NCBI GenBank assembly: GCA_007693745.1
Contig: REDA01000072.1
Location: 1 to 40,855 of the forward strand
Reading direction: 5' to 3'
DNA from: Balneolaceae bacterium
GTDB lineage: Bacteria > Bacteroidota > Rhodothermia > Balneolales > Balneolaceae
DNA: 40,855 nucleotides
Shown here: piece by piece, positions 14,830-28,890 of the stretch
Numbering within the stretch: the stretch's first letter is position 1
Layout: the number at the start of each line of letters is the position of its first letter
Position numbers and translations under genes: made by a program
The notes under the pieces: generated by a model
What the model was told of the DNA's origin: nothing
Seen by the model: the letters and a program-made list of their open reading frames with translations, nothing else
The model's database searches: none

Positions 14830-15132
14830 CTAAAATGAAGGGATGGGATCATTTCTGTAAAGTGTATCCAGAAGAGTGATTCCGATCATGAGAAGAAAGA
14901 AAGCGGCTGACATCACAAACAGAAGTACGTTAAACTTACTTTCCCAGTAGAGGTTCATAAAGAATGCGGATACAATGAGTGCCTTGACAACGGCAATGGC
15001 AATCGCAACGACAACATTCCAGGGTGATGGAATATGGATCCAGGTTACGGCGACTGTAAGTATGGTGAGCATGAAAAGTGTGATTCCCACGCCCCAAAGA
15101 AATTTTGCAGAAGATATATGATGTCCGCTCAT
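14830..15132 (-). CDS. coxD: Cytochrome c oxidase subunit IV
   Basis: This 100-residue integral membrane protein has three predicted helices (about 12-30, 36-58 and 66-88). The middle one carries AIAIAVVKALIVSAFFMNLYW, where the Lys and the F-F-M-x-L pattern are typical of the small bacterial oxidase subunit IV (COX4-type). It stabilises the caa3 oxidase core and is not catalytic. It is the last gene of the operon, starting 19 bases after coxC and followed by a terminator. Confidence 0.9.
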   Translation of the reverse strand: MSGHHISSAKFLWGVGITLFMLTILTVAVTWIHIPSPWNVVVAIAIAVVKALIVSAFFMNLYWESKFNVLLFVMSAAFFLLMIGITLLDTLYRNDPIPSF

Positions 15133-15151
15133 ATCAGATAAAAATTAAGGG

Positions 15152-15808
15152 TTAGTCGATCAGATAAAGCAAAGGAAAAAGGAAAATCCAAATGATATCC
15201 ACAAGGTGCCAGTAGAGTCCGGTAATCTCAACCGGTGTATAATATCCACTGTGAAATACCTTCTTTTTCGCTTTGTAGACAAGCCAGAGCATCAGGCCGA
15301 TCCCAATGATTACGTGCACGCCGTGAAGGCCAGTCATCATGTAGTAAATACTGAAAAAGATGTTGGCTTTTTCATGGGCCACGCCCTCATAACTGTAGTA
15401 GGAGCCGGGCAGAATCCCCTTGGCAAACTTTTCTGCATATTCGAAATACTTGATCACCATAAATACACAGGCAAGACCGATGGTAATCCATAGATTGATG
15501 ATCAGACCCTTGATCTGGTTAAGCTGAGCAGACCGAATGGCCATTGCCACTGTGAGTGAACTTCCGATCAGTACGAACGTGTTCACAGCCCCCCAAAAAG
15601 TATCGAGTTGTTCGGAAGCCAGAAGATAGAGATCCGGATACCAGGCTCTGTAAACGATGTATGCGACAAAGAGTCCACCGAAAAAGAGAATTTCAGTTAC
15701 CAGAAATATCCACATTCCCATTTTGGAGGCTTCGAACTGCTGATCGCTGTCAATGAAATGGTGCTGAAGATGATCCAGTTTTTCCTCGGTTGCTGAATGT
15801 CCGGCCAT
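15152..15808 (-). CDS. coxC: Cytochrome c oxidase subunit III
   Basis: This 218-residue protein has five predicted membrane helices, the short form usual for caa3 oxidases. Recognisable subunit III segments are MGMWIFLVTEILFFGGLF (30-47), FFSIYYMMTGLHGVHVIIG (150-168) and the C-terminal YWHLVDIIWIFLFPLLYL. The Glu in VTEILFFG is the conserved acidic residue of helix III-type sequences. The subunit supports stable proton uptake by subunit I but holds no metal centre. It starts 11 bases after coxA. Confidence 0.95.
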   Translation of the reverse strand: MAGHSATEEKLDHLQHHFIDSDQQFEASKMGMWIFLVTEILFFGGLFVAYIVYRAWYPDLYLLASEQLDTFWGAVNTFVLIGSSLTVAMAIRSAQLNQIKGLIINLWITIGLACVFMVIKYFEYAEKFAKGILPGSYYSYEGVAHEKANIFFSIYYMMTGLHGVHVIIGIGLMLWLVYKAKKKVFHSGYYTPVEITGLYWHLVDIIWIFLFPLLYLID

Positions 15809-15819
15809 GTTTTTGTCAG

Positions 15820-17559
15820 TTATGCTTGTTCTGTTTCAGTTCTCTTGGCACTCACTTCTTCATGATGATGGTGCCCGTTATGGGAGTTAGCGATGCCAAG
15901 CTGAAATTCTGACATCGGTTTGTGATAATCGTAGGGTCCGTTGACGATCACAGGTGTGTGCTCGAAATTGTGCAGAGGTGCGGGGGAGGTAGTCTGCCAC
16001 TCAAGTGCACGGCTGCCCCAGGGGTTAGCTTTCGCTCGTTCACCTTTCAGGAGAGAGTGAAGCAGGTAGCCAAACATCAGGACAAATGCGACCCCCATGA
16101 TATATGCTCCCAGCGTTGAAAACTGGTGAAATGGCTGGAACTGGTCGATATAATTGAAGTACCGGCGAGGCATGCCCTGAGATCCCATCACAAACTGCGG
16201 GAGGAAGGTCATGTTGAAGCCAACAAACAGGAGTGCAGCCGAAATACGAGCCCAGAACTCGCTGTACATTTTGCCGAACATTTTCGGCCACCAGTAGTGA
16301 AGGCCGGCGAGGAATGCCATTACCATTCCACCCATCATCACATAGTGAAAGTGTGCAACCACATAGTAGGTGTCGTGAAGATGGATATCGACAGAGAGGG
16401 CACCGAGCATAATTCCTGTAAAACCACCAATGGTAAAAAGGAACAGGAATACCATGGCGTAGATCATGGGGGTTTTCATATCGATGGAACCCTTGTACAT
16501 CGTTGCCAGCCAGTTGAAGATTTTGATGCCGGTTGGGATACCCACGAGAAATGTCAGAAATGAGAACACCATGTTGGCCAGAGAAGACTGTCCTGCCGTG
16601 AACATATGGTGACCCCAAACCAGGAATCCAATAAATGCGATCGCAAGGGATGAGAGGGCAATTGCCCAGTATCCAAAAATGGTTTTTCTTGAAAATGAAG
16701 AGATCACTTCAGAAATGATGCCAAATCCGGGTACGATCATGATGTAAACAGCCGGATGTGAATAAAACCAGAAGAAATGCTGATATAGTACAGGATCGCC
16801 TCCCATTGCCGGGTCAAAAATACCAATTCCCAGAAGTCTCTCCATGGTCAGGAGAAGGAGAGTGATGGCCAGCACGGGTGTTGCCAGAATCTGGATGATG
16901 CTGGTTGCGTAGAGTCCCCACAAATTCAGTGGAAGCTTACTCCATGTAATACCGGGTGACCGCATTTTGTGGATGGTTACCATAAAATTGATTCCGGTAA
17001 GAATGGATGAGAATCCAAGGATAAAAATCCCGAATGTCATCGCCATTACATTTCCACCGGTAGTTGCACTGTAGGGAGTGTAGAATGTCCAACCGGTATC
17101 AACTCCGCCGGAGGCGATTGCGTAAAATGTAAAGAGTGCCCCGATTACATAGATGTAAAAACTTGCGAGGTTTAGCCGGGGAAATGCGACGTCCTTGGCA
17201 CCCAGCTGCAGCGGCAACACGAAATTTCCGAGAACAGCGGGGACGGAAGGGACAAGAAAGAAGAAGATCATAATTGCGCCGTGCAGCGTAAAGACCTGAT
17301 TGTACACGTCTGCATCCATAAAAGACCGGGCAGGTGTAAGCAGCTCTGTACGAAGCAGTAGTGCAAGGACACCGGCAATGAAAAAGAAGAAAGCGATGGA
17401 TGCAAGGTACATCAAACCGATCTTCTTGTGATCGACTGTGGTTAGCCAGGCCCAGAGGCCTTTTTCCTCATTGAGGTAGTGCTTCTCCGGAAACTCTTCC
17501 GGCACGAAACGCCTGACCTGGATACGTTTTCTGTTCTTTATTTCTTCGTTCGTAGCCAT
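15820..17559 (-). CDS. coxA: Cytochrome c oxidase subunit I, type A2 haem-copper oxidase
   Basis: This is the catalytic, proton-pumping subunit, 579 residues with about twelve helices. All metal ligands are visible: His93 (TLHGAIM) and His405 for the low-spin haem a, His403 (VVAHFHY) for haem a3, and His268, His317 and His318 (YSHPAVY, VWGHHMF) for CuB, with the cross-linking Tyr272. The D-channel glutamate of mitochondrial-type enzymes (HPEVY) is absent; instead Tyr266-Ser267 precede the histidine (YSHPAVY), the signature of type A2 oxidases such as that of Rhodothermus marinus. The C-terminus is His-rich (HNGHHHHEE). It follows coxB by 5 bases. Subunit I of a caa3 enzyme is the clear reading. 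Confidence 0.98.
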
Positions 17560-17564
17560 TTAGA

Positions 17565-18506
17565 TTACTGTAGGGTTCTTAAGTAAGCGATAATTGCGTC
17601 AATTTGCCGGTCGTTGAGAGTGCCGGTGTAGGATGGCATGACAGGCAGGTAACCTTCAACGATTTTCACATTGGGATCGAGGATACTTTCTCTGATATAG
17701 TTTTCATCTGCGATAATTCGTTCACCGTTATCCATTACTCTTTCAGAGCCGAACAGTCCCAGAAATGTAGGACCCTGAAGGCGGGAACCATCTGAAGAGT
17801 GACAAGTCTGGCAGGCATTACGGCTTACAAGCTCTGCGCCGAGTTCAATTGGATCCATATCGAGATCCGCGGCGCCGGCGGTGAGGAGCCATGTTTCAAA
17901 ATCCTCCTGTTCATGTACATAGGCGGTGGCAAGCATATTTGAATGCGCGGTTCCGCAATATTCTGTACAGAAGATAACCGACTCGCCTGTCTCCGTAGCT
18001 TCAAACCAGAGAGAGGTATATCGGTTAGGAAGAACGTCCATTTTAACCCTGAAGTCGGGTATGTAGAAAGAATGCAGTACATCATCGGAACTCATGACCA
18101 GTCTTACCGGTCTGTTTACAGGTACATGCAACTCATTTACACTCACATATCCATTTTCATAGTGAAACTCCCAGAGCCAGCTTTTACCTACAACACGTAC
18201 TTCATAGGCGTCGTCAGGGACTGTTGTAAGGTTCACGTAACCCCTTAGTCCCCAGCCGAATACGATCATAACCAGGATGAGGGGAATTACAGACCAGCTG
18301 ATTTCGAGAGCACTGTTGTGAGTGATCACGGGTGTGACATCATTTTCAGATCTTCTTCGGTATTTCCATGAGAAATAGATGATGGCAATGGTGATGCCGA
18401 TCAGAAGAATAATGCTGGTTGTCGTGATAAAATGGAATAATGCATCTGTACCCTCAGCAACTGTGCTTTTTTGAGGGGGGAGCATAAATTCACTCAATCT
18501 GTTCAT
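17565..18506 (-). CDS. coxB: Cytochrome c oxidase subunit II with fused cytochrome c domain (caa3 type)
   Basis: The 313-residue subunit has two N-terminal membrane helices (about 25-47 and 70-90), a periplasmic cupredoxin domain and a C-terminal cytochrome c domain. CuA ligands are His145, Cys180, Cys184, His188 and Met191 (CTEYCGTAHSNM), with Glu182 between the cysteines. The haem c site is CQTCH at 232-236, and the likely axial Met lies in GYLPVMPSY. This fusion defines caa3 oxidases, which take electrons directly from a cytochrome or from Complex III. Its ATG overlaps the sco stop codon in ATGA, so translation is coupled. The cytochrome domain closely resembles the second haem domain of ActE in the same operon. 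Confidence 0.97.
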   Translation of the reverse strand: MNRLSEFMLPPQKSTVAEGTDALFHFITTTSIILLIGITIAIIYFSWKYRRRSENDVTPVITHNSALEISWSVIPLILVMIVFGWGLRGYVNLTTVPDDAYEVRVVGKSWLWEFHYENGYVSVNELHVPVNRPVRLVMSSDDVLHSFYIPDFRVKMDVLPNRYTSLWFEATETGESVIFCTEYCGTAHSNMLATAYVHEQEDFETWLLTAGAADLDMDPIELGAELVSRNACQTCHSSDGSRLQGPTFLGLFGSERVMDNGERIIADENYIRESILDPNVKIVEGYLPVMPSYTGTLNDRQIDAIIAYLRTLQ

Positions 18507-19339
18507 TTGCTGTTTAAATCAAATTTGGGTGATGGTGAGGATCTTTTTTCGCGCCTCCAAAAAACGCTCAGGAATATACCGAGAAAAATAACTGTTGCCA
18601 AACCGCCAAGCTTCATAATATTCATCGCTACAGGCACATAACTTTGAGAGGAGGGATCGTAGGTAAAACAGTAAAAAAGTACTCTGTCGAGTGTATTTCC
18701 TATGGTTCCATCTGCGGCTTCGAAGAGTGCATTTCTCAGATCAAATTCTCTGAAAGCTGCGCCATAGAGGTATCTGGTTACAACTCCTTCCGGACTCAAC
18801 ATCATGATACTGGCAAGATGAAGATATTCACCGGTCAGTTCGTCGTACTTGTAACGGAAGCCTACAGCGTTCGTTACAGCTTCTATTGATTCTCTGCTTC
18901 CGGTAAGAAAATGCCACCCATTTTCAGCTCCGGGCCTGTCCAGATCCGATAAATACCGCTGTTTTGATCTGGCTGCCATTTCGGGTGTCTCTGCAGGATC
19001 GATGCTGAAAGAGATGATTGTGTAATCCTTACCGGGACTCCATACCAGGTCGTTTACAACGTTGAAAACAGCATCGAGAACCAGTCCGCACAGCACGGGA
19101 CAGTCGTAATAGAGTGGGTTGAGCAATACAGGTTTTCCACTTTCGAAGAGGTCACCCAGGCGCACGGTTTCACCATAGGAGTTTTTGAAGAAGATGTCGT
19201 GGGGAACAGTGTTCCCCAGTTGTTCATCCACTCCAATTTCATCCAGTATGGCCGGTCTTCCCTGGTTCAGCTGTGCGCTGACAGTTTCGAAAGTGAAAAA
19301 CAGTGTTGCAACTAAAAACAACAGCTGTTTTTTATTCAT
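18503..19339 (-). CDS. sco: SCO1/SenC-family copper chaperone for CuA assembly
   Basis: The SCO family delivers copper or reducing power to the CuA centre of CoxB. The 278-residue protein has a signal peptide (1-22), a thioredoxin-like domain with the copper motif C80-P-V-L-C84 (YYDCPVLCG) and the third ligand His174 (EYLHLASIM). A C-terminal membrane helix (about 236-258, KLGGLATVIFLGIFLSVFW) ends in a basic tail. This C-terminal anchor differs from the more usual N-terminal anchor but occurs in SCO proteins of ACIII operons. Its position directly before coxB, with a 4-base overlap, matches the role. Confidence 0.95.
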   Translation of the reverse strand: MNKKQLLFLVATLFFTFETVSAQLNQGRPAILDEIGVDEQLGNTVPHDIFFKNSYGETVRLGDLFESGKPVLLNPLYYDCPVLCGLVLDAVFNVVNDLVWSPGKDYTIISFSIDPAETPEMAARSKQRYLSDLDRPGAENGWHFLTGSRESIEAVTNAVGFRYKYDELTGEYLHLASIMMLSPEGVVTRYLYGAAFREFDLRNALFEAADGTIGNTLDRVLFYCFTYDPSSQSYVPVAMNIMKLGGLATVIFLGIFLSVFWRREKRSSPSPKFDLNSK

Positions 19340-19354
19340 AACGGGGTTAATTTA

Positions 19355-19843
19355 CTACTCAGATACAATCAAAGTGATTGCACTGTCAATTGGTATTCGG
19401 TAAATCCCTTCATCGGGATCCACTACACCGAATGAGTTCAGTCTCTGCAGGTCATTTCTCTGCAATTCCCGAATGTCGAAATAGATACTCTGTTCAGAAC
19501 TGGTTTGAAGCGATGCTGTCCGTGTATATTCATGCATAAACATAACGGCGACAATAAATATGATGATCGCACCCGTACCAAAGAGTGACCAGAAAGTCAA
19601 TTTGTTGTAATTGAGACGGTCATGAGTAGCACCAAATTCAACAGAGTCGGCAAACTCTTCAGACACATCCAGTGAAAACGTTTCAACGGATTCGGACTTG
19701 CTTTCTTGTATCCACCTGCGAATTTCTTCTGCTGGAACCTGATAATTTTCAGCTATTTTCCGGATCTCGGGATCACCGCCGGAGAGAGCCTTTTCTACGA
19801 TTTCGGCTTTTTCTCTATCCGTGAAATTTTTAGAGGTACTCAT
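19355..19843 (-). CDS. HTH-membrane protein of unknown role within the respiratory operon
   Basis: A 162-residue protein built in three parts. Residues 1-50 resemble the helix-turn-helix of IS3/IS911-type OrfA transposase proteins (FTDREKAEIVEKALSGG, then AENYQVPAEEIRRWIQ). An acidic linker (51-80) follows. Residues 83-103 form one membrane helix. The remaining 58 residues, predicted periplasmic, contain DLQRLNSFGVVDPDEGIYR and end with IPIDSAITLIV. I recall the N-S-x-G-x-V-D and I-P-I-D-x-A motif from small membrane proteins beside oxidase and SCO genes in other phyla. The gene is 20 bases after actF and 15 before sco, so it belongs to the operon. It is not a transposase: there is no catalytic partner and no terminal repeats. 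It could be an assembly factor or a membrane-tethered regulator; neither is shown. Confidence 0.8.
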   Translation of the reverse strand: MSTSKNFTDREKAEIVEKALSGGDPEIRKIAENYQVPAEEIRRWIQESKSESVETFSLDVSEEFADSVEFGATHDRLNYNKLTFWSLFGTGAIIIFIVAVMFMHEYTRTASLQTSSEQSIYFDIRELQRNDLQRLNSFGVVDPDEGIYRIPIDSAITLIVSE

Positions 19844-19863
19844 GATTCGTTGAGATTACAGGA

Positions 19864-21063
19864 TTATTGATGATAGTGTTTGCTCAGCGATTCAGCAAGC
19901 TGCGGATCATTAACTGGTACCAGATTGTTCTTCTTGAGTTGTTGAAAGAACAGACCCATAAATACACCGCCAAGGCCAACGAAAGTAGCAAGATCAAGCC
20001 AGCTGAGGGAGATCCCGCTGTGACTTAAAACCGGCATCACAATCCAGTGCAGTTCGACAATATGCATGACGATAACGAGGACAGAAACACCGATCAGCAG
20101 ATTGTTATTGTGTTTGAGGTCTCTGTTCAAAAGCACGATAAACGGAAGCACGAAGCGGCCAATCAGAATTGCATAGGTTACGAAAGACCAGCTTCCCTCG
20201 AGCCTGTGATAGAACCAGAGAGTTTCCTCAGGAATATTTGCGTAGTAGATCAGCAGGAACTGACTGAATGCGATATAGGCATAAAAGACTGAGAATCCGA
20301 AGAACCAGGCACCCAGATCGTAAATATGGGCTTTGCCGATCGTATTTTTCAGGATTCCGTTTTTATGCATCCAGAATACCATCAGTATGATGATGGGGAA
20401 GAGCACCTGGAAACTCATTGCAAAAAAGTAAACTCCGAACATGGTGGAAAACCAGTGGGCATCGAGTGACATCAGCCAGTCGAAGCTTGCAAATGCAACC
20501 GTAAGGGAAAAAATGAGAATACCGGGGGCACTGATTTTCCGCAGTGCCTGAACAAGTCCCCAGTTGTTTGTGTTATCCATTTCGATGGATATTTTATGGA
20601 GGCGGTATCCCATGTAGCCCCACACTGCAAAGTAAAAGATCTGCCGTATGATAAAAAAAGGTTCATTGAGATAGGGTACTTTACCGAGCATGATTGGGTC
20701 GTTAGCTACATAGGCGGTGTTGGTCCATGAGTAGAGAGTACTCATGCCCAGCAGTACCGGAATAACAAAAATGGACCAGATCCACAGATTTGATGAAAAT
20801 GATTCCGGGATACGCCGGATCACGGTACCCCATGATGATTTGGTGATATGATGGATCATCACAAGGATAAGGGAAGCCAGAGCGATACTTGTAAAAAAAG
20901 TGAAGCTTGTCAGGTATGAGAAAAAGAACTGTTCACTATTCAGGAAGTATCCTGCGAGGCTGGCGATGAGGCCTACGGCGCCAAAACCGTAGAATGTCTT
21001 CACCAGGTTTAGATTGTCGGGAAATTGGACAGAATCGGTAAGTTTGGAACTTGTTGAAGCCAT
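19864..21063 (-). CDS. actF: Alternative Complex III subunit ActF (NrfD-like membrane subunit)
   Basis: This is a 399-residue polytopic protein with about ten predicted helices, the second quinone-type membrane subunit of ACIII and a paralogue of ActC. Recognisable segments include SFDWLMSLDAHWFSTMFGVY (188-207) and FYAYIAFSQFLLIYYANIPE (about 256-275), both typical of ActF. Family knowledge suggests it does not hold a quinone but shapes a proton pathway. It begins 24 bases after actE. Confidence 0.95.
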   Translation of the reverse strand: MASTSSKLTDSVQFPDNLNLVKTFYGFGAVGLIASLAGYFLNSEQFFFSYLTSFTFFTSIALASLILVMIHHITKSSWGTVIRRIPESFSSNLWIWSIFVIPVLLGMSTLYSWTNTAYVANDPIMLGKVPYLNEPFFIIRQIFYFAVWGYMGYRLHKISIEMDNTNNWGLVQALRKISAPGILIFSLTVAFASFDWLMSLDAHWFSTMFGVYFFAMSFQVLFPIIILMVFWMHKNGILKNTIGKAHIYDLGAWFFGFSVFYAYIAFSQFLLIYYANIPEETLWFYHRLEGSWSFVTYAILIGRFVLPFIVLLNRDLKHNNNLLIGVSVLVIVMHIVELHWIVMPVLSHSGISLSWLDLATFVGLGGVFMGLFFQQLKKNNLVPVNDPQLAESLSKHYHQ

Positions 21064-21087
21064 GTAATTACAGTTTTTTATCTCAGA

Positions 21088-22071
21088 TTATTCTTCAGAA
21101 AGTGATCGGATAAATTCGACAAGTGAAAGCAGTTCGCTTTCTGAGAGATGGGTGTAGGCAACCATTACATTATCATATCCCTCCACAATCAGAACTTCCG
21201 GATAGATAATAGATTCCACGAGGTATTCCTCATCAGCAACCCCGCTTGTTCCATCCGTAAACTGTCTCTCAGCCATGTAAAGGTTCAGGAATGAGGGGCC
21301 GACACCGGCTCTTCCATCCACAGAGTGGCATGCCTGACAGGCATTCTGAACATAGAGGCGTTCACCTCTTGCAACGCTGATATCATCGTCACCCACAACA
21401 ACTCTTGAAGCGGCGAGGGCTTCGAGTCTTTCCTGTTCTGCAAAGAATTCATTTCTCAGCTCAGCAAGATTAATATCAAACTGATCCATTTCTGTTTCAG
21501 GAACAAACTGGCTGCGCTGCAACGCGCGAATGTAAGCAACAATCGCCCAGCGATCTTCAACGTTGATCTGGGTAGCATAGGAGGGCATGGTTCTGATGCC
21601 GTTTGCAATGGCTGAGTAGAATTCTCCGTCGGGCATTTCCCTGCTTGCCTCCCGGTGGAATGTCGGAGCGGGAACGTACCCATACTGACCGGTCATAATG
21701 ATACCCTGGCCGTCTCCGGTTCCTCCATGACACATCTGGCAGAAGATATCGTAGCGATCCTTGCCGCGGTAGAGAAAGTCACGTGTCAGGTCGAACGGAA
21801 TTTCAGTAACAAAATCGCCCTGTTCGTCGAGTCCCTCAAAGAGGGCAGTGTCGTGACGCAGTAAACCTCTGGCAACGGTTCCCTCGACCGGCAAGCGCAT
21901 GGCCATTCCATCTTCAAAGAAAGGGTTTTCCTGCTGGGCATTGAAGCGTTCCTGGAAGTTCATATTGAAGTGGGTGCGGACCGGCGGTTTGTCCGTAGTT
22001 TGTCCCCGGCAGGAAAAAAGTGCCATGGAGACGAGCAGTAAAGCACTTAAATGTGTGAGAGCCAATTTCAT
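21088..22071 (-). CDS. actE: Alternative Complex III cytochrome c subunit ActE with an extra cytochrome c domain
   Basis: A lipoprotein (signal to Cys21, LFSC) of 327 residues with two haem c sites. The first, CQMCH at 111-115 with the likely axial Met162 in TMPSY, is the standard ActE domain. The second, CQACH at 245-249, with GPSFLNLYMAERQF and GYDNVMVAY, is an added domain after an acidic coiled segment (190-225). Textbook ActE is monohaem and about 200 residues long, so this is a fusion. The second domain resembles the CoxB cytochrome domain encoded downstream (shared features are NACQ.CHS.DG, GP.FL.L, I.P.V.IVEGY and a final I.SL/L..L). It probably carries electrons from the pentahaem ActA towards the oxidase. 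Confidence 0.95.
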   Translation of the reverse strand: MKLALTHLSALLLVSMALFSCRGQTTDKPPVRTHFNMNFQERFNAQQENPFFEDGMAMRLPVEGTVARGLLRHDTALFEGLDEQGDFVTEIPFDLTRDFLYRGKDRYDIFCQMCHGGTGDGQGIIMTGQYGYVPAPTFHREASREMPDGEFYSAIANGIRTMPSYATQINVEDRWAIVAYIRALQRSQFVPETEMDQFDINLAELRNEFFAEQERLEALAASRVVVGDDDISVARGERLYVQNACQACHSVDGRAGVGPSFLNLYMAERQFTDGTSGVADEEYLVESIIYPEVLIVEGYDNVMVAYTHLSESELLSLVEFIRSLSEE

Positions 22072-22109
22072 AATAATGATTCAGTATGTGGTAATCTGGT
22101 TAAATAGGT

Positions 22110-22661
22110 TTACTCATCAAAAATCAGTTCGATATTTTCAGCGCCTGCTTCCCTGAGCAGTTTCTGTACCTTTTCCTGTTCAAATTGAGGGTCTTCCGAT
22201 TCGATGCAGACAAAATAACCGTCGTCTGTTGCCTTCTTGAAATTATCGGAATTAAACAGCGGATGGTTGAGTCTGGGAAGACCGTTCAGGAAGAACATTC
22301 CGAAAACGGCTCCGAAAGCAGAGAGCAAAACAGTCAGCTCAAATATAACAGGAATCCAGGCAGGGATGTTTACAAGTGATTTTCCACTGATATTCAGGGG
22401 ATAATCGGCAACCATCATGAAATAGATCATTGCAAATGCCCCGGCAAACCCAAGCAGTCCGTGGCTGAAGACGATCCATCCAAGCTTGGATTTTTTCAGT
22501 TTCATGGCTTTGTCCATTCCGTGAATTGGAAAAGGGCTGAATGTGTCGAATTTCTGGTAACCTTTAGCGATGATGAGTCTGGCTGCATCCGTAAGCTCTT
22601 TCGGATTTCTGAACTCGGCCAGAACACCGTAAAGTTTAGTATCTGAATCAGTAGATTTCAT
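22110..22661 (-). CDS. actD: Alternative Complex III subunit ActD (DUF3341)
   Basis: This is a 183-residue protein of the DUF3341 family. The N-terminal cytoplasmic part has the diagnostic SPFPIHGMDKAM motif (41-52). Two membrane helices follow (about 64-84 and 100-125), then a cytoplasmic C-terminal part that ends in EAGAENIELI-type sequence. ActD braces the two large membrane subunits and holds no cofactor. It starts 11 bases after actC. Confidence 0.95.
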   Translation of the reverse strand: MKSTDSDTKLYGVLAEFRNPKELTDAARLIIAKGYQKFDTFSPFPIHGMDKAMKLKKSKLGWIVFSHGLLGFAGAFAMIYFMMVADYPLNISGKSLVNIPAWIPVIFELTVLLSAFGAVFGMFFLNGLPRLNHPLFNSDNFKKATDDGYFVCIESEDPQFEQEKVQKLLREAGAENIELIFDE

Positions 22662-22672
22662 GAGCTAACTCT

Positions 22673-24100
22673 TTAAGAGGTTTTGGTGTAGGGCTGAGGT
22701 ACTTCAACTTTTGGAGGTACAAACTCGCCTTTATCATTATAATTATGCGGATCCGCCTGTGGCATAACCCCTTTCAGCTCGGCAACTGCGATCATAGGAA
22801 GAAACCGCAGGAAGAGCAGGAAGAATGTAAAAAACAGGCCGAATGTTCCAATGTAGGTTGCCACGTCCCAGAAAGTGGGGGAGTAGTATCCCCAGGAAGA
22901 GGGGAGGTAATCGGTGGAGAGAGAGGTGACTGCGATAACAAATCTCTCAAACCACATACCGATGTTCACTACGATGGATATTATAAAGGTAAATGCCACG
23001 TTTCTTCTGAGCTTCTTGGACCAGAAAAACTGAGGAGAAAGAACGTTGCATGCAATCATAATCCAGTAGGCCCAGGCGTAAGGACCGGTAGCGCGAAGAA
23101 TGAAAATGGCTTTTTCATACTCTACCTGACCGTACCAGGCGATAAAAAATTCCATAGCATAGGCAAAGCCAACCATGGAGCCTGTAACAAGAATAATGAT
23201 ATTCATTTTCTCAATATGGTCATCTGTCATGATATCCTGGAGCCCGTAGATTTTCCGGACAATGATCATCAGGGTAAGCACCATTGCAAATCCTGAAAAC
23301 ACAGCTCCTGCCACAAAATAGGGAGGGAAAATGGTAGTGTGCCATCCCGGAATGATAGATACGGCAAAGTCGAACGAAACAATTGTATGTACAGAGAGCA
23401 CCAGCGGTGTTGCCAGTCCGGCGAGAATCATGTACGATTTTTCATAGTTCCACCAGTGGCGGTTACTCCCTCTCCAGCCGAGTGCAAATGTACCATAAAT
23501 CAGCTTTCCGTATTTACTCTTGATGCGATCTCTGATTGTTGCCAGATCAGGCACCAGTCCAACATACCAAAACAGGAAAGAGACAGTGAAATAAGTTGAG
23601 ACGGCAAACACATCCCATAACAGCGGGCTGTTGAAGTTTGGCCACATGGCCATGGAATTGGGGAGCGGAAACACCCAGTAGATCACCCAGATACGCCCCA
23701 CATGTATTGCGGGAAAGATACCGGCGCACATAACAGCAAAGATGGTCATGGCCTCTGCAAAACGGTTGATAGCCGTACGCCAACCCTGCCGGAACAGGAA
23801 CAGAATCGCAGAAATCAGTGTTCCGGCGTGTCCGATACCGACCCACCAGACAAAGTTGATAATAGCCCAACCCCATCCAACGGGCTGATTCAGGCCCCAT
23901 ATTCCGGTACCCTCCCAGAAAAGCCAGGCTATGGATACAAGCAGCAGCAGCAGTAACAGGTTGGAGATCCCAAAGGCGATGTACCAGCCCGTGGGTGTAG
24001 GCCTGATATTGATATCCGTCACCATGGCCGTGATATCCTTAAAGCTGTGATTCCCTTTCACAAGTGCGGGTTCGGGAACGTATTCGTACGTTTTACTCAT
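22673..24100 (-). CDS. actC: Alternative Complex III quinol-oxidising subunit ActC (NrfD family)
   Basis: This is a 475-residue NrfD-family membrane protein with about ten helices that binds the quinol on the periplasmic side and passes electrons to the Fe-S chain of ActB. Typical segments are [20 protein letters not shown] (76-95), containing the conserved His, then [10 protein letters not shown] (about 129-138), [15 protein letters not shown] and [15 protein letters not shown]. The C-terminal tail is hydrophilic. It follows actB by 29 bases. Confidence 0.97.
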
Positions 24101-24129
24101 GTTCAGTCGGTTGCGATAACGATTGTGAA

Positions 24130-27100
24130 TTAACCCAATTCAGGATTCTTGTTTGTAAGTCGTGCCAGATAGGATGTTCGCGGGCGAACATTGATTTCTT
24201 CCAGCATGACATAATTTCTTTCGTTTCTTTTGGATCTTGATATCACGCTGTTTTTATCCGTGAGATCGCCAAAGGTGATAGCGTTTGCCGGACATGCTTG
24301 CTGACAGGCAGTTTTAACAGTTCCGTCGGCCGGTTTTCTTGATCCGGTGGCGATTTTTGAAGCGATTTTACCACGATTGATTCTCTGTACACAGTAGGTA
24401 CATTTCTCAATTACACCCCGGAAACGAACGGTTACATCGGGATTCATGGCCATCTGAATAATCTCCGGATCGTCACCGGTGGTCAGGTACTCTTTCGTAT
24501 AATTGAAGAAATTGAATCGTCTTACTTTGAACGGACAGTTGTTTGCACAGTACCGGGTACCGATGCAACGGTTATAGGTCATCTGATTGAGTCCGTCTTC
24601 ACTGTGTGTGGTGGCGGCGACAGGGCAGACCTGTTCGCATGGAGCGAGTTCACAGTGCATACAGGGAACAGGCTGATGGTAAACAGAGGGATTGTCCGGG
24701 TCACCTTCATAGTATCTGTCGGTTCGGATCCAGTGCATAATTCGTCTTCTGCCCACTTCCCGTTTACCGATAACGGGGATATTGTTTTCGGCCTGGCATG
24801 CAATGGTACAGACGCCGCACCCAAAACAGGCATTCAGGTCGATCGCCATTCCCCATTGAGGCTGATGATCCGGGCCATACTGTTCGTTGAACAGGGAAAT
24901 GGGGCCGCGATCGTCGCCTTTCGCGAGAGCTTCCTTCATGCCGGGTACTTTAAACCCGTGGAAACTTTCAAATGAGGCAAAGTCTGGATTCTCTTTGTAC
25001 TGCTCAAGCGTTGCCGTGCGAATCATATCCCGGCCTTCCAGGCTGTGATGATCCTGTACACAGGCTACTTCGTATGTTCTGCCAGCAGGCTCGGCCACTG
25101 CAGCGGCAAACAACATCGCGTTAGTGTTCCTGAACGGGTAGACATCCACTCCAACTCCATCTGCAACGCGGCCCAGTCCTTTTCGGCCAAAGCCTGCAGT
25201 GAGCGTTATGGAATCATCAGCATGTCCCGGTTCTATCCAGGCTGCAATTTCGATCGTTGTATTTCCGGAGGTGATACGCACTAAGGGAACATCATTGTTC
25301 CTGAAACTACGAGTTGGATTAATGCCAATTTTTTCTGCAGTTGCTGCACTCATCAGTGCGACGTTATCCCATGTAATTTTTGTCATCGGTTCCGGCAGTT
25401 CCTGGAGCCAGCCGATGTTTGCAAACCGGCCGTCAAAAATCCGGGAATCAGGCTTCACAGTGAGTTCAATCCCGGAAACGGCCTGCTGTGTGAGAGCAGA
25501 TTGTACGGCCTCTTCAAACTGATTGTTCAGTAAAACAGAGACCTCGGGAAAGTGACTTTCCTGATCCAATCCGTTGTGCAGGATGGTTTCCCACTCCCGT
25601 CTAAAGTCGGATGAGAGGGAAGAGCTCCAGGTCTGCTGTACCAGCTCATGCCCGGATATTTCCTCTCCGGTAAGCAGCAGGTTTAGAAATTCAATTTCGC
25701 TCAAACCGCCGAATAGTGGAAGAATTTGAGGCTGTATCACAGATCGCTGACCTGTAAAGGAGAGGCCGTCTCCCCACGATTCAATGTAATGGGCTCTGTT
25801 TACATGCCAGTTGCAGATCGCTGAGGTTTCATCTGCATATTCAGAGAGATGGATTGTTGACTGAGCCCGGGAGAGAGCCTCTTCAAAGGCCAGGTCTGCA
25901 GGGGCTGTTTGGCGGATATTGGTACCAACAAGTACAACCGTGTCATAAGTCCCGTTACGCAACTCTTCAACTGCAGAGATAAAAGCTTCCCGTTCATTGC
26001 GGTCCGTATTGTGGGGAATTCGGTGATACGTAACTGTATTGCCGGAATTACCAAGAGCATGATTCAGTACAGCCACCACGGCATGCAGTTCTGCAGAATG
26101 CTCTCTGCTTGCGCTGATTACAGAAGTGCCCCTGTTGGAGAGAAGTTCATTTGCAAGGACTTCAATCCACTTATGGGAAGAAAATTCATTTTCAAACCCG
26201 ATGAAAGCACTTAACCCGCTGAGAGACGAAGAGAGTTTGGCTGCGAGTGCGTAGGTGAAGGGGGCAATCTGTGAAGTTTTAAGGCGCAGTCTGTGATCTG
26301 CATATGAGCCGGTGGAAGTAAGTGCATTTTCAACCGAGTAGATCCGGGACATTGAGTCGGATGCTGTCTCCACTTTTCTTCTGGCCGTCAGTTTAAGAGA
26401 GTTTTCGACACTGTTTGTACTGGCGTGCGGACTCATAAAATCATCATCGAGTGCAATGACCAGATCAGCTTTATCGTAATGCGGAACCGTTCTGAGGCGT
26501 TCGCCGAAAGCGATTTGAGTTCCCTCAATACGGTTATCATCTGAAAACGGTTCATAAGTCACCCAGTCAGCATTTGGAAAAGCGGAAAGTACTTCTTCTC
26601 TGATCCGGTGGTAAGTAGGTGAAGAGGTAGCTTCATCAATAAAGAGCAGCGATTGGTTTCGGTCAGCAAAATGTGAGGATGCAAATTGAACAAATTCCTC
26701 TTTGGAAACTTTTTCACCATTTCGGATCGGGGATCTGGAACGATCCGGATCGTAAAGTCCAAGAATAGATGCCTGATGGAAGATACTTGTTTTACCGCCG
26801 CTTGAGGGGTGGTCTTCGTTCCCTTCAATCTTATTGGGCCTGCCTTCATAATTTGTAATCAGAAGTCCGGTTACCGAGTCCTGAAATGGCATGCTGGTAG
26901 CATAATAGAGGGGTTCTCCCAAAACCATGTCTTCAGGCTGCCGTGAGTAGGGCAGGATTTTCTGAACCGGTTTCCGGCAGGAGGCAAAACCGGCAAGTGC
27001 AATCGAGGCACCCATCACCCTGAGGAAGCTGCGTCTTGAGACCTGATCACTGAGCTCAGTAGCGTCTTCGGGAAACTCTCGTTCCACAAACTTTTTATAC

Positions 27101-27165
27101 TCTTCGTTTTGGGCAAGCTCGTTCAGGCTTTTCCAATAAGTAGTTTGATTTGACTGATCACTCAT
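24130..27165 (-). CDS. actB: Alternative Complex III Fe-S subunit ActB with molybdopterin-like domain
   Basis: This is a 1011-residue periplasmic subunit. It has a Tat signal ([10 protein letters not shown] at 43-52, followed by a hydrophobic stretch and Cys63, a possible lipobox), a large domain of the molybdopterin oxidoreductase fold that in ACIII lacks the cofactor, and a C-terminal ferredoxin-like domain. Four cysteine clusters are visible: [11 protein letters not shown] from residue 780, [26 protein letters not shown] and CTYCVQR paired with CQQACP. They would ligate three [4Fe-4S] clusters and one [3Fe-4S] cluster, as in characterised ACIII; cluster types are from family knowledge. It lies 51 bases after actA, the largest gap inside the act cluster. 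Confidence 0.97.
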
Positions 27166-27216
27166 TCTAAAGTGGCTTTGTTTATTGAATCTGTTATTGG
27201 TTCAGTCGGACACCTG

Positions 27217-27861
27217 TCAGAAGTGACAGCTCTGACAGTAGGTGGGTGCGTTGATATTGTGGCGCGCCACTAATTCACGTCCCAGTTCAAGCTGGTTTTC
27301 AGCTACATAACCCATAGTGGTGACTTCAGATACCGGCCTGACATATTTTTCGGGCTCTCTGTGACAGTCGAGGCACCATCCCATACTCAGCGGTTCTGCC
27401 TGAAATACAACATCCATTCTGTCCACCCTGCCGTGGCACGATTCACATCCCACACCCACATTCACGTGAGCGGCATGGTTGAAATAGGCGTAATCCGGGA
27501 GCATGTGAACCCTGACCCACTGGATAGGCAGACCTGTCTCCCAGCTTTCCCGGACAAGTGCCAGATCATCACTATCAGTCTTGATCTGGCTGTGGCAATT
27601 CATGCAGGTCTGTGTTGCCGGGATGTTTGCATGTTTGGAATCCCATACCTGAGTGTGACAATACTGGCAGTCCATCCCAAGTTGTCCTACATGCACGCTG
27701 TGGCTGAAAGGAACCGGTTGTTCCGGCATGTAACCAACATCAGTAAATTCGGGTGAGAAGAAATACCAGACTGCAAATACAATTGCATTTAGCAGTACTA
27801 TTGAGCCGACCAGGATTCTGCGTGGAGCTTCATTTGTCCACTTAGGAAAAATTTGAGCCAT
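27217..27861 (-). CDS. actA: Alternative Complex III pentahaem cytochrome c subunit ActA
   Basis: The 214-residue protein has one N-terminal anchor helix (17-36) and five CxxCH haem c motifs: 65-69, 86-90, 139-143, 163-167 and 209-213, the last almost at the C-terminus. Five haems in this length match ActA. Additional His residues (HSVHVG, FNHAAH) could be distal ligands. It accepts electrons from ActB and feeds ActE or the oxidase. As first gene of the operon it lies behind the palindrome-containing control region at 27862-28247. Confidence 0.97.
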   Translation of the reverse strand: MAQIFPKWTNEAPRRILVGSIVLLNAIVFAVWYFFSPEFTDVGYMPEQPVPFSHSVHVGQLGMDCQYCHTQVWDSKHANIPATQTCMNCHSQIKTDSDDLALVRESWETGLPIQWVRVHMLPDYAYFNHAAHVNVGVGCESCHGRVDRMDVVFQAEPLSMGWCLDCHREPEKYVRPVSEVTTMGYVAENQLELGRELVARHNINAPTYCQSCHF

Positions 27862-28247
27862 AAAATCTGTTACTCTTAGCTGTTAAGATCGTTGTAGTAT
27901 CTGTACTGTTAGCAGGCTTTAGGAGACACGGAATATAAATAATCTGTACAGATCATTTTTGCCCGAAAATGATATTTAAACTCAGTCTAAATAACGGCTC
28001 ACGAGCTCGCTGTGACCTTCAGTAATTTTTTAAATATAGTGCTCTGCCTTAAAAGTTGCTGAAAAATCGGCCTGTTTTTTTTACAGGTAAGAGTGCTTAA
28101 TGAAGATCCGGTGCGGCACTCATTTTCAGGATTAGCCGGAGTGTGATATTGAACAACTTGTGGTTGATAAGGTTAGCGATTTAAAGGCTGAATGAGAAAC
28201 AGGGGAAATTGAGTGAGTGAAACTTAACGGAAAAAAGTTATTCTTTT
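27862..28247. other. Non-coding region between the ACIII operon and the DUF420 gene
   Basis: This is 386 bases with no credible coding frame on either strand. It holds the palindrome and its partial copies (27865-27953), an AT-rich 8-bp stem (ATCATTTT at 27952-27959 with AAAATGAT at 27966-27973), and a possible minus-strand -10 (TATATT at 27932-27937). From about 28000 to 28245 I see nothing definable. Confidence 0.6.
27899..27953 (-). promoter_or_regulatory. Candidate operator of the ACIII-caa3 operon
   Basis: ATCTGTACAGAT at 27942-27953 is a perfect 12-bp palindrome. A second, imperfect copy sharing the arm ATCTGTAC lies at 27899-27910, so the centres are 43 bases apart, about four helical turns. 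A weaker ATCTGTTAC lies at 27865-27873. Read towards actA, the palindrome is followed at once by TATATT, a possible -10 without a good -35, as expected of a regulated promoter. The binding protein is unknown. Confidence 0.4.
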
Positions 28248-28276: not shown

Positions 28277-28320
28277 TCATGGTATTTTTGAGCACAGAAT
28301 CTAAACCCAAAAAGCAGGCT

Positions 28321-28890
28321 ATGGAACCATCCCTGAATGAAAAACTTACGATACAGTTTATAAAAGAGATCAATGTCAGAAAAGCGCTAGCCTTGATATT
28401 AACAGTGAGTGGCATTGCTCTCCTCTTCCTTCTTTATCTGCTCTATTTCAGGGAGGCGACTGAGGTGACAGCTGACTGGGTGACTCAGCTCCCTGCCCTG
28501 AATGCCTTTTTAAATAGCGGAAGTACTCTTTTGATTCTTGCGGGTTTCATTGCAATCAAAAAGAGAAATTTCATTATGCACATGAAGCTGATGCTCACTG
28601 CATTTGTGACTTCAGCACTATTTCTGATCAGCTATCTGATTTACCATGCATACGTCGGGCACACGCCCTTTCCGGGCGAAGGCTGGATCAGGCCGGTCTA
28701 TTTCTTTATTCTGATCACACACATCATTCTGTCCGCCACCGTGGTGCCTCTGGTTCTTACCAGTTACTATTTTGCATTTGCAGGAAAATTCCAGACCCAC
28801 CGGAAAGTTTCTTTATGGACCTTCCCTATCTGGCTTTATGTTTCTGTAACGGGGGTAATGATCTTTTTTATTTTAAATGCCTACATTTGA
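28321..28890 (+). CDS. DUF420 family membrane protein
   Basis: A 189-residue protein with five predicted helices, of the DUF420 family that is commonly encoded next to haem-copper oxidases and suspected in oxidase or haem assembly. Conserved-looking histidines lie at helix ends: MHMKLM, YLIYHAYVGH, ITHIILSATV and THRKVS. ATG 28321 is preferred over the in-frame ATG 28279 because a strong promoter places the RNA start between them. It is divergent from the ACIII operon across a shared control region. Function beyond the association is unproven. Confidence 0.85.
   Translation: MEPSLNEKLTIQFIKEINVRKALALILTVSGIALLFLLYLLYFREATEVTADWVTQLPALNAFLNSGSTLLILAGFIAIKKRNFIMHMKLMLTAFVTSALFLISYLIYHAYVGHTPFPGEGWIRPVYFFILITHIILSATVVPLVLTSYYFAFAGKFQTHRKVSLWTFPIWLYVSVTGVMIFFILNAYI

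Follow-up and report, generated by a model that had tools for sequence, protein, structure and literature searches.

The act–cox operon and its actG gene

The window analysed here is a 40,855-nucleotide stretch of a Balneolaceae genome (GenBank assembly GCA_007693745.1, contig REDA01000072.1), and it carries on its minus strand a twelve-gene operon for alternative complex III (ACIII) and the caa3 oxidase, actABCDEF, actG, sco, coxB, coxA, coxC and coxD (Table 1). A preliminary description had recognized a twelve-gene respiratory operon, and all twelve genes are now backed by Pfam or PDB matches. These identify an ActA-type multihaem cytochrome, the ActB iron–sulfur protein, an NrfD-like ActC, ActD (Pfam ActD, E = 6.5e-66) and the cytochrome ActE, followed downstream by SCO, COX2, COX1, COX3 and COX4_pro. 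ActF has no Pfam match and is identified through PDB chain 6f0k_F (E = 3.9e-96). Divergent from actA, on the plus strand, a DUF420 membrane protein is encoded at 28279–28890 (E = 7.6e-42). The ActE gene (21088–22071) contains two cytochrome c stretches with two CxxCH sites, whereas R. marinus ActE has one haem; ActE frames across the family Balneolaceae (f1 in our numbering) span 327–387 amino acids, and most other families, with the exception of locus L095, give a shorter match.

The actG frame opens with an ATG and encodes 162 amino acids. It is separated by 20 bases from the end of the ActF gene (19864) and by 15 bases from the SCO start codon (19339), in agreement with the 15–20-base gaps described earlier. 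A search of genome contigs yielded 12 relatives of the window protein, matches occur in 84 of 394 genomes of the phylum (one of which, G393, is an unrelated helix-turn-helix match), and an ActG profile detects the protein in 226 of the 244 genomes of the class; the frame is therefore not a chance one. The actG gene with its fused helix-turn-helix (HTH) domain is real, old and under selection.

Table 1 Features of the window and related loci
Feature	Location	Strand	Basis
actG with N-terminal HTH extension, 162 aa	19355–19843	−	ORF, relatives, synteny, 8k9e_G match
Residues 5–50, HTH domain derived from IS3 OrfA, predicted cytoplasmic	19694–19831	−	Pfam, AlphaFold, Foldseek, hhalign, OrfA comparison
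Residues 62–79, juxtamembrane segment, SVxxGVxxDxLNY-like, present also in HTH-less ActGs	19607–19660	−	Alignment
Residues 83–103, predicted single membrane helix, ends approximate	19535–19597	−	AlphaFold, sequence analysis
Residues 104–162, outer (periplasmic) part assigned to ActG	19358–19534	−	Profile searches
Residues 138–155, FGVVDPDEGIYRIPIDSA, best conserved ActG stretch	19379–19432	−	Profile and alignment
ActF, gene preceding actG	19864–21063	−	ORF, PDB match
SCO1/SenC, gene following actG	18503–19339	−	ORF, Pfam
act–cox operon actABCDEF-actG-sco-coxBACD	14830–27861	−	Pfam and PDB
Fn3-bearing ActG loci	L092–L094, L099, L100, L102, L103, L107, L108, L113		AlphaFold/Foldseek on L107, alignment

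The membrane helix and outer part match ActG of alternative complex III

Profile searches and gene order identify the membrane helix and outer part of the window protein as ActG, which is the seventh, optional subunit of ACIII and has one membrane helix. A profile search of the outer part had been proposed earlier, and a profile built from the helix and outer part of 27 relatives placed Chloroflexus ActG (8k9e_G) at the top of nine PDB matches with E = 2.2e-4, followed by a runner-up at E = 0.098. Similarly, a single ActG from family f5 found 8k9e_G as its sole PDB match (E = 0.046), with an alignment running through both the helix and the outer part. The link to Chloroflexus is thus significant, its score modest. 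A phmmer search of PDB with one orthologue returned nothing at E = 1, and no Pfam or NCBIfam model matched the ActG part when the window protein was scanned.

Synteny points in the same direction. Of 80 loci retrieved by position, 78 have the gene flanked by ActF and CoxB, and SCO was detected in between in 74 of those 78; the 80 loci represent 79 genomes, the matching genomes G008, G034, G133 and G270 lying outside the set. The two exceptions are L098, a second copy in genome G219, and L121, an unrelated HTH–membrane protein in G393. The L098 protein is a 290-residue ActG-like protein of the Fn3 type described below, and the L121 protein has 202 residues, with an HTH-like N terminus followed by a membrane helix. 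The stretches fetched around both lack any match to the act and cox genes of the window. In the Chloroflexus aurantiacus respiratory operon, actG is likewise followed by SCO1/SenC and COX genes (PMC3150298).

The outer part contains the IPID-x-A motif noted at the outset, as I150-P151-I152-D153-S154-A155, of which P151 and D153 are the same in every one of 57 aligned proteins (L089 being left out of the ActG alignments). The window protein has a single membrane helix, no cysteine and no cofactor motif. AlphaFold models one long helix starting at residue 79 and assigns low confidence to the outer part (blocks of 56–63 from residue 131 on). Counts of lysine and arginine on the two sides of the helix favour a cytoplasmic N terminus only moderately: among 78 proteins, 38 have more basic residues before the helix, 24 have equal numbers and 16 have fewer.

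The preliminary description had likened the outer part to small membrane proteins found near SCO and oxidase genes; a small subunit within an act–cox operon it is, and an unnamed oxidase-associated peptide is ruled out by the 8k9e_G match and the ActF/CoxB synteny. Its alternative suggestion of an assembly or supercomplex subunit came near the mark in the second half, because the membrane and outer parts correspond to ActG of ACIII. This subunit is poorly understood. According to a study of R. marinus, ActG was detected in purified ACIII by peptide mass fingerprinting and has one predicted membrane helix, yet gave no density, and actG is absent from some act clusters (PMC5928083).

The N-terminal domain resembles the helix-turn-helix of IS3 OrfA

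Comparisons at the level of profiles and sequences indicate that the N-terminal 50 residues of these ActGs derive from the HTH domain of an IS3-type OrfA, as the preliminary description had proposed for residues 1–50. Residues 2–55 of the window copy match Pfam HTH_Tnp_1 with E = 4.3e-4 and 20.9 bits, slightly below the cut-off of 24.1, and its genome contains no other HTH_Tnp_1 match at E = 0.01. NCBIfam returned only transposase matches below cut-off for the window HTH. Matches over the cut-off come from orthologues. Three of six scanned singly exceed it (32.7, 31.4 and 28.3 bits), two fall under it and one has no match, and when 58 genomes of the family were scanned, at least 13 of their ActGs passed, with up to 34.1 bits, when the places of the matches are paired with ActG loci from the phylum and class searches. 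Across the alignment, HTH_Tnp_1 matches 27 of 57 proteins at 0.01, and the domain is present in 45 of the 57.

OrfA proteins of the same family allow a direct comparison. We compared the N-terminal domains of 39 ActGs, taken from the genome set and the window (several contig-search loci duplicate genome records, such as L005 = G119 and L008 = G171), with 18 OrfAs retained from 30 loci of the HTH_Tnp_1 family scan after exclusion of ActG copies, L135 (internal stop), L140 (truncated) and L149 (a 737-residue frame). Alignment of the two profiles with hhalign gave a probability of 97.9 and E = 4.7e-13, whereas 20 column shuffles reached a probability of at most 0.54. The closest OrfA to 34 of the 39 ActGs belongs to the L136/L138 type, with up to 37% identity over approximately 50 residues. 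An overlapping downstream ORF, which we take by recognition to be IS3 OrfB-like, accompanies L138.

The predicted structure is in line with a three-helix domain. AlphaFold places helices at residues 9–22, 24–34 and 38–54 of the window protein, with block pLDDT values of 79–85 for residues 11–50, followed by an acidic linker of low confidence; the linker and single membrane helix described earlier are thus both found in the model. Structural searches with this model returned weak matches. In Foldseek the best was 2rn7 (TnpE) at E = 0.16 with nothing at 0.001, and in VIA-align 2rn7 ranked second with Z = 5.8, among many unrelated helical matches. Such matches, together with the sub-threshold Pfam scores of the window copy and many orthologues, might suggest that any three-helix bundle could score in this way and that the similarity to OrfA is coincidental. 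This explanation is strongly disfavoured by the profile–profile score, which lies far above the shuffles, as well as by the orthologues over the Pfam cut-off and the identity to the L136/L138 OrfAs, and we regard it as very improbable.

Purifying selection with loss of OrfA contact residues

The N-terminal domain is under purifying selection. Of 18 pairs tried, 16 were computable, and in 15 of these dN/dS of the domain was at most 0.28; the exception had a dN/dS of 0.70 at a dS of 0.08. Both parts were computable in 14 pairs, and in 11 of these the domain had the higher dN/dS and the ActG part the lower.

Alignment with the OrfA set shows that the HTH core was kept while key basic residues of OrfA disappeared. 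Trp44 and Ala19 are found in 39/39 ActG domains. On the other hand, the lysine or arginine that follows the invariant tryptophan in 15/18 OrfAs occurs in 0/39 ActGs, and arm position 4 is basic in 3/39 against 15/18. Positions 39 and 40 are acidic in 25/39 and 22/39 ActGs, respectively, and in 0/18 OrfAs each, leaving a recognition helix that is acidic in most copies. Other basic positions have been kept or gained, namely 6 (23/39 against 9/18 in OrfA), 12 (lysine or arginine, 39/39 against 12/18) and 33 (28/39 against 4/18), and the window copy retains R42 and R43.

These patterns bear on the proposal that the protein is a membrane-tethered, one-piece regulator whose HTH domain has retained DNA binding and signals the condition of the complex to the chromosome, for instance at its own promoter. 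The HTH homology behind this proposal is real, several basic positions persist, and an HTH followed by a single membrane helix and an external part recalls ToxR and CadC. The preliminary description had, however, made the idea depend on conserved basic DNA-contact residues, and the basic positions that flank the recognition helix in OrfA, such as the one after the tryptophan, have not been kept. The model also contains no confident zipper or wing, and its linker is of low confidence. Net charge, averaging −3.2 in ActG and +4.6 in OrfA over N-terminal fragments of 56 and up to 60 residues, was dropped as a sole argument against DNA binding. It is weak evidence: across 14 HTH domains encoded in the same genome the charge runs from −4 to +5 with a mean of +1.4, and the window protein has −3 over residues 1–56 and −1 over residues 5–50.

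Upstream sequence elements of the operon

A candidate target for such a regulator had been seen in the 12-bp palindrome ATCTGTACAGAT (27942–27953), which is indeed present, 92 bases ahead of actA. Its arms recur, however, in just one (L004; ATCTGCGCAGAT, at 90 bases) of nine further HTH-bearing Balneolaceae upstream stretches of at least 140 bases. The right half, CAGAT, recurs in four of the nine (L004, L005, L011 and L012), and L013 has a different palindrome at 104 bases. The palindrome therefore fares poorly as a conserved target of the HTH domain.

A second element is more widely shared. The AT-rich inverted repeat ATTTAGAnTnnnTTnAAAT lies on the minus strand of the window at 27974–27992, 131 bases before actA, as an exact copy. 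Eight of the nine further HTH-bearing stretches also have it exactly and L013 differs at one position; in every case it lies 122–135 bases ahead of actA. Exact copies occur too in four of six stretches upstream of operons with HTH-less ActG (L087, L089, L095 and L096), with two mismatches in L088 and four in L120. The pattern was drawn by eye, so that the shuffle values for it are after the fact. ATTTAGAnTnnnTTnAAAT is likely an operator or promoter element of the act–cox operon; since it also precedes operons with HTH-less ActG, it does not depend on the HTH domain as an operator. Taken with the lost contact residues and the domain's absence from 6 of 45 Balneolaceae ActGs, these observations make a tethered one-component regulator quite unlikely.

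Distribution and history of the ActG N-terminal domains

We placed the fusion on a 77-taxon tree built from ActB, ActC and CoxA, from which L098 and L121 were left out and L045 and L111 were dropped for a missing gene. Only family f1, the Balneolaceae, has the HTH form, and a single gain following the divergence from L095 would account for the tree (support for the f1 node 0.949; some inner nodes are weak). Conservation of the fusion within the family is broad and incomplete: the domain is present in 39 of the 45 f1 ActGs of the phylum search set, whereas G159, G317 and the clade G077/G139/G143/G191 lack it. Provided that the HTH was never regained, these absences amount to three losses. The distribution fits fusion of an OrfA HTH to ActG at the base of the Balneolaceae, with one gain and three losses, and the repeated loss suggests that the domain is not essential.

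One could read these losses, and the six f1 ActGs without the domain, as the mark of a passenger, a captured domain that folds and has no partner, kept because it is harmless or because it aids folding or translation of ActG. The weaker constraint relative to the ActG part agrees with this account, as does the search for a partner within the operon, in which the lengths of ten other operon proteins show no clear change tracking the presence or absence of the HTH. Purifying selection on the domain and the family-wide conservation of Trp44, Ala19 and Lys/Arg12 argue against it, and we consider a mere passenger unlikely.

The ActGs of families f8, f11, f13 and f14, which we guess may include relatives of Salinibacter, carry a different N-terminal domain in proteins of 246–274 amino acids. 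In the AlphaFold model of L107 this domain forms a beta sandwich (block pLDDT 88–97), for which Foldseek finds fn3 with E = 2.1e-5; Pfam fn3 matches only one of 11, weakly. With an HTH in f1 and an Fn3-like domain in these four families, the N terminus of ActG has gained different domains in different clades.

Discussion

Retention of the HTH core, loss of the basic residues of OrfA and purifying selection together make a protein-contact role the best-supported reading of the domain. We propose that the window gene is an actG whose domesticated transposase HTH probably serves as a cytoplasmic protein-contact module on an accessory subunit of ACIII. By analogy with its family, ActG would dock to ACIII through its one membrane helix and short outer segment. 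Homology shows, in line with the tree, that an IS3-type OrfA HTH was joined to its N terminus, which is predicted to be cytoplasmic, in the ancestor of the Balneolaceae. The domain has retained its core, while important basic residues of the parent OrfA have gone and acidic ones have appeared on the recognition helix. It most likely makes protein–protein contacts on the cytoplasmic face, either bracing ActG against ActD, ActC or ActF or recruiting a cytoplasmic partner. The module is optional: several lineages have lost it, and in another branch of the class an Fn3-like domain occupies this position. That the domesticated HTH has kept contact with the chromosome or with the machinery of transcription, making the ACIII–caa3 supercomplex a membrane-anchored regulator, appears a long shot.

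The turning of a transposase DNA-binding domain into a module of a respiratory complex would be an unusual domestication, and the predicted cytoplasmic end of ActG emerges as a site of domain capture, where one family has acquired an OrfA HTH and another branch carries an Fn3-like domain. We found no report of HTH–ActG or Fn3–ActG fusions in the available text of the literature on ActG, ACIII and transposase exaptation. For a subunit present in R. marinus preparations, without density there and missing from some clusters (PMC5928083), the 50-residue N-terminal domain may offer a concrete handle on its role.

The protein can be set against four known systems. With ActG of ACIII in R. marinus, C. 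aurantiacus and 8k9e chain G it shares the place after actF and before SCO and the cox genes, the single membrane helix, the lack of a cofactor motif and the outer IPIDxA segment. The Balneolaceae copies differ in that their predicted cytoplasmic end is extended by approximately 50 HTH residues and an acidic linker, the Chloroflexus protein having 112 amino acids against 162 in the window copy. The Fn3-bearing ActGs of f8, f11, f13 and f14 have the same ActG part and operon place, with an Fn3-like beta sandwich where the Balneolaceae have an HTH. With IS3-family OrfA, such as L138, the N-terminal domain shares the three-helix core, the invariant tryptophan and the FK..V..EA pattern; unlike OrfA, the ActG copies are fused to a membrane protein and have lost key basic positions, and no companion OrfB integrase lies beside actG, whose neighbours are act and cox genes. 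Finally, regulators of the ToxR/CadC type have a DNA-binding winged HTH inside the cell, one membrane helix and an outer part. This layout is common to both, whereas the ActG fusion has lost contact residues of the OrfA type and its outer part is that of a respiratory subunit.
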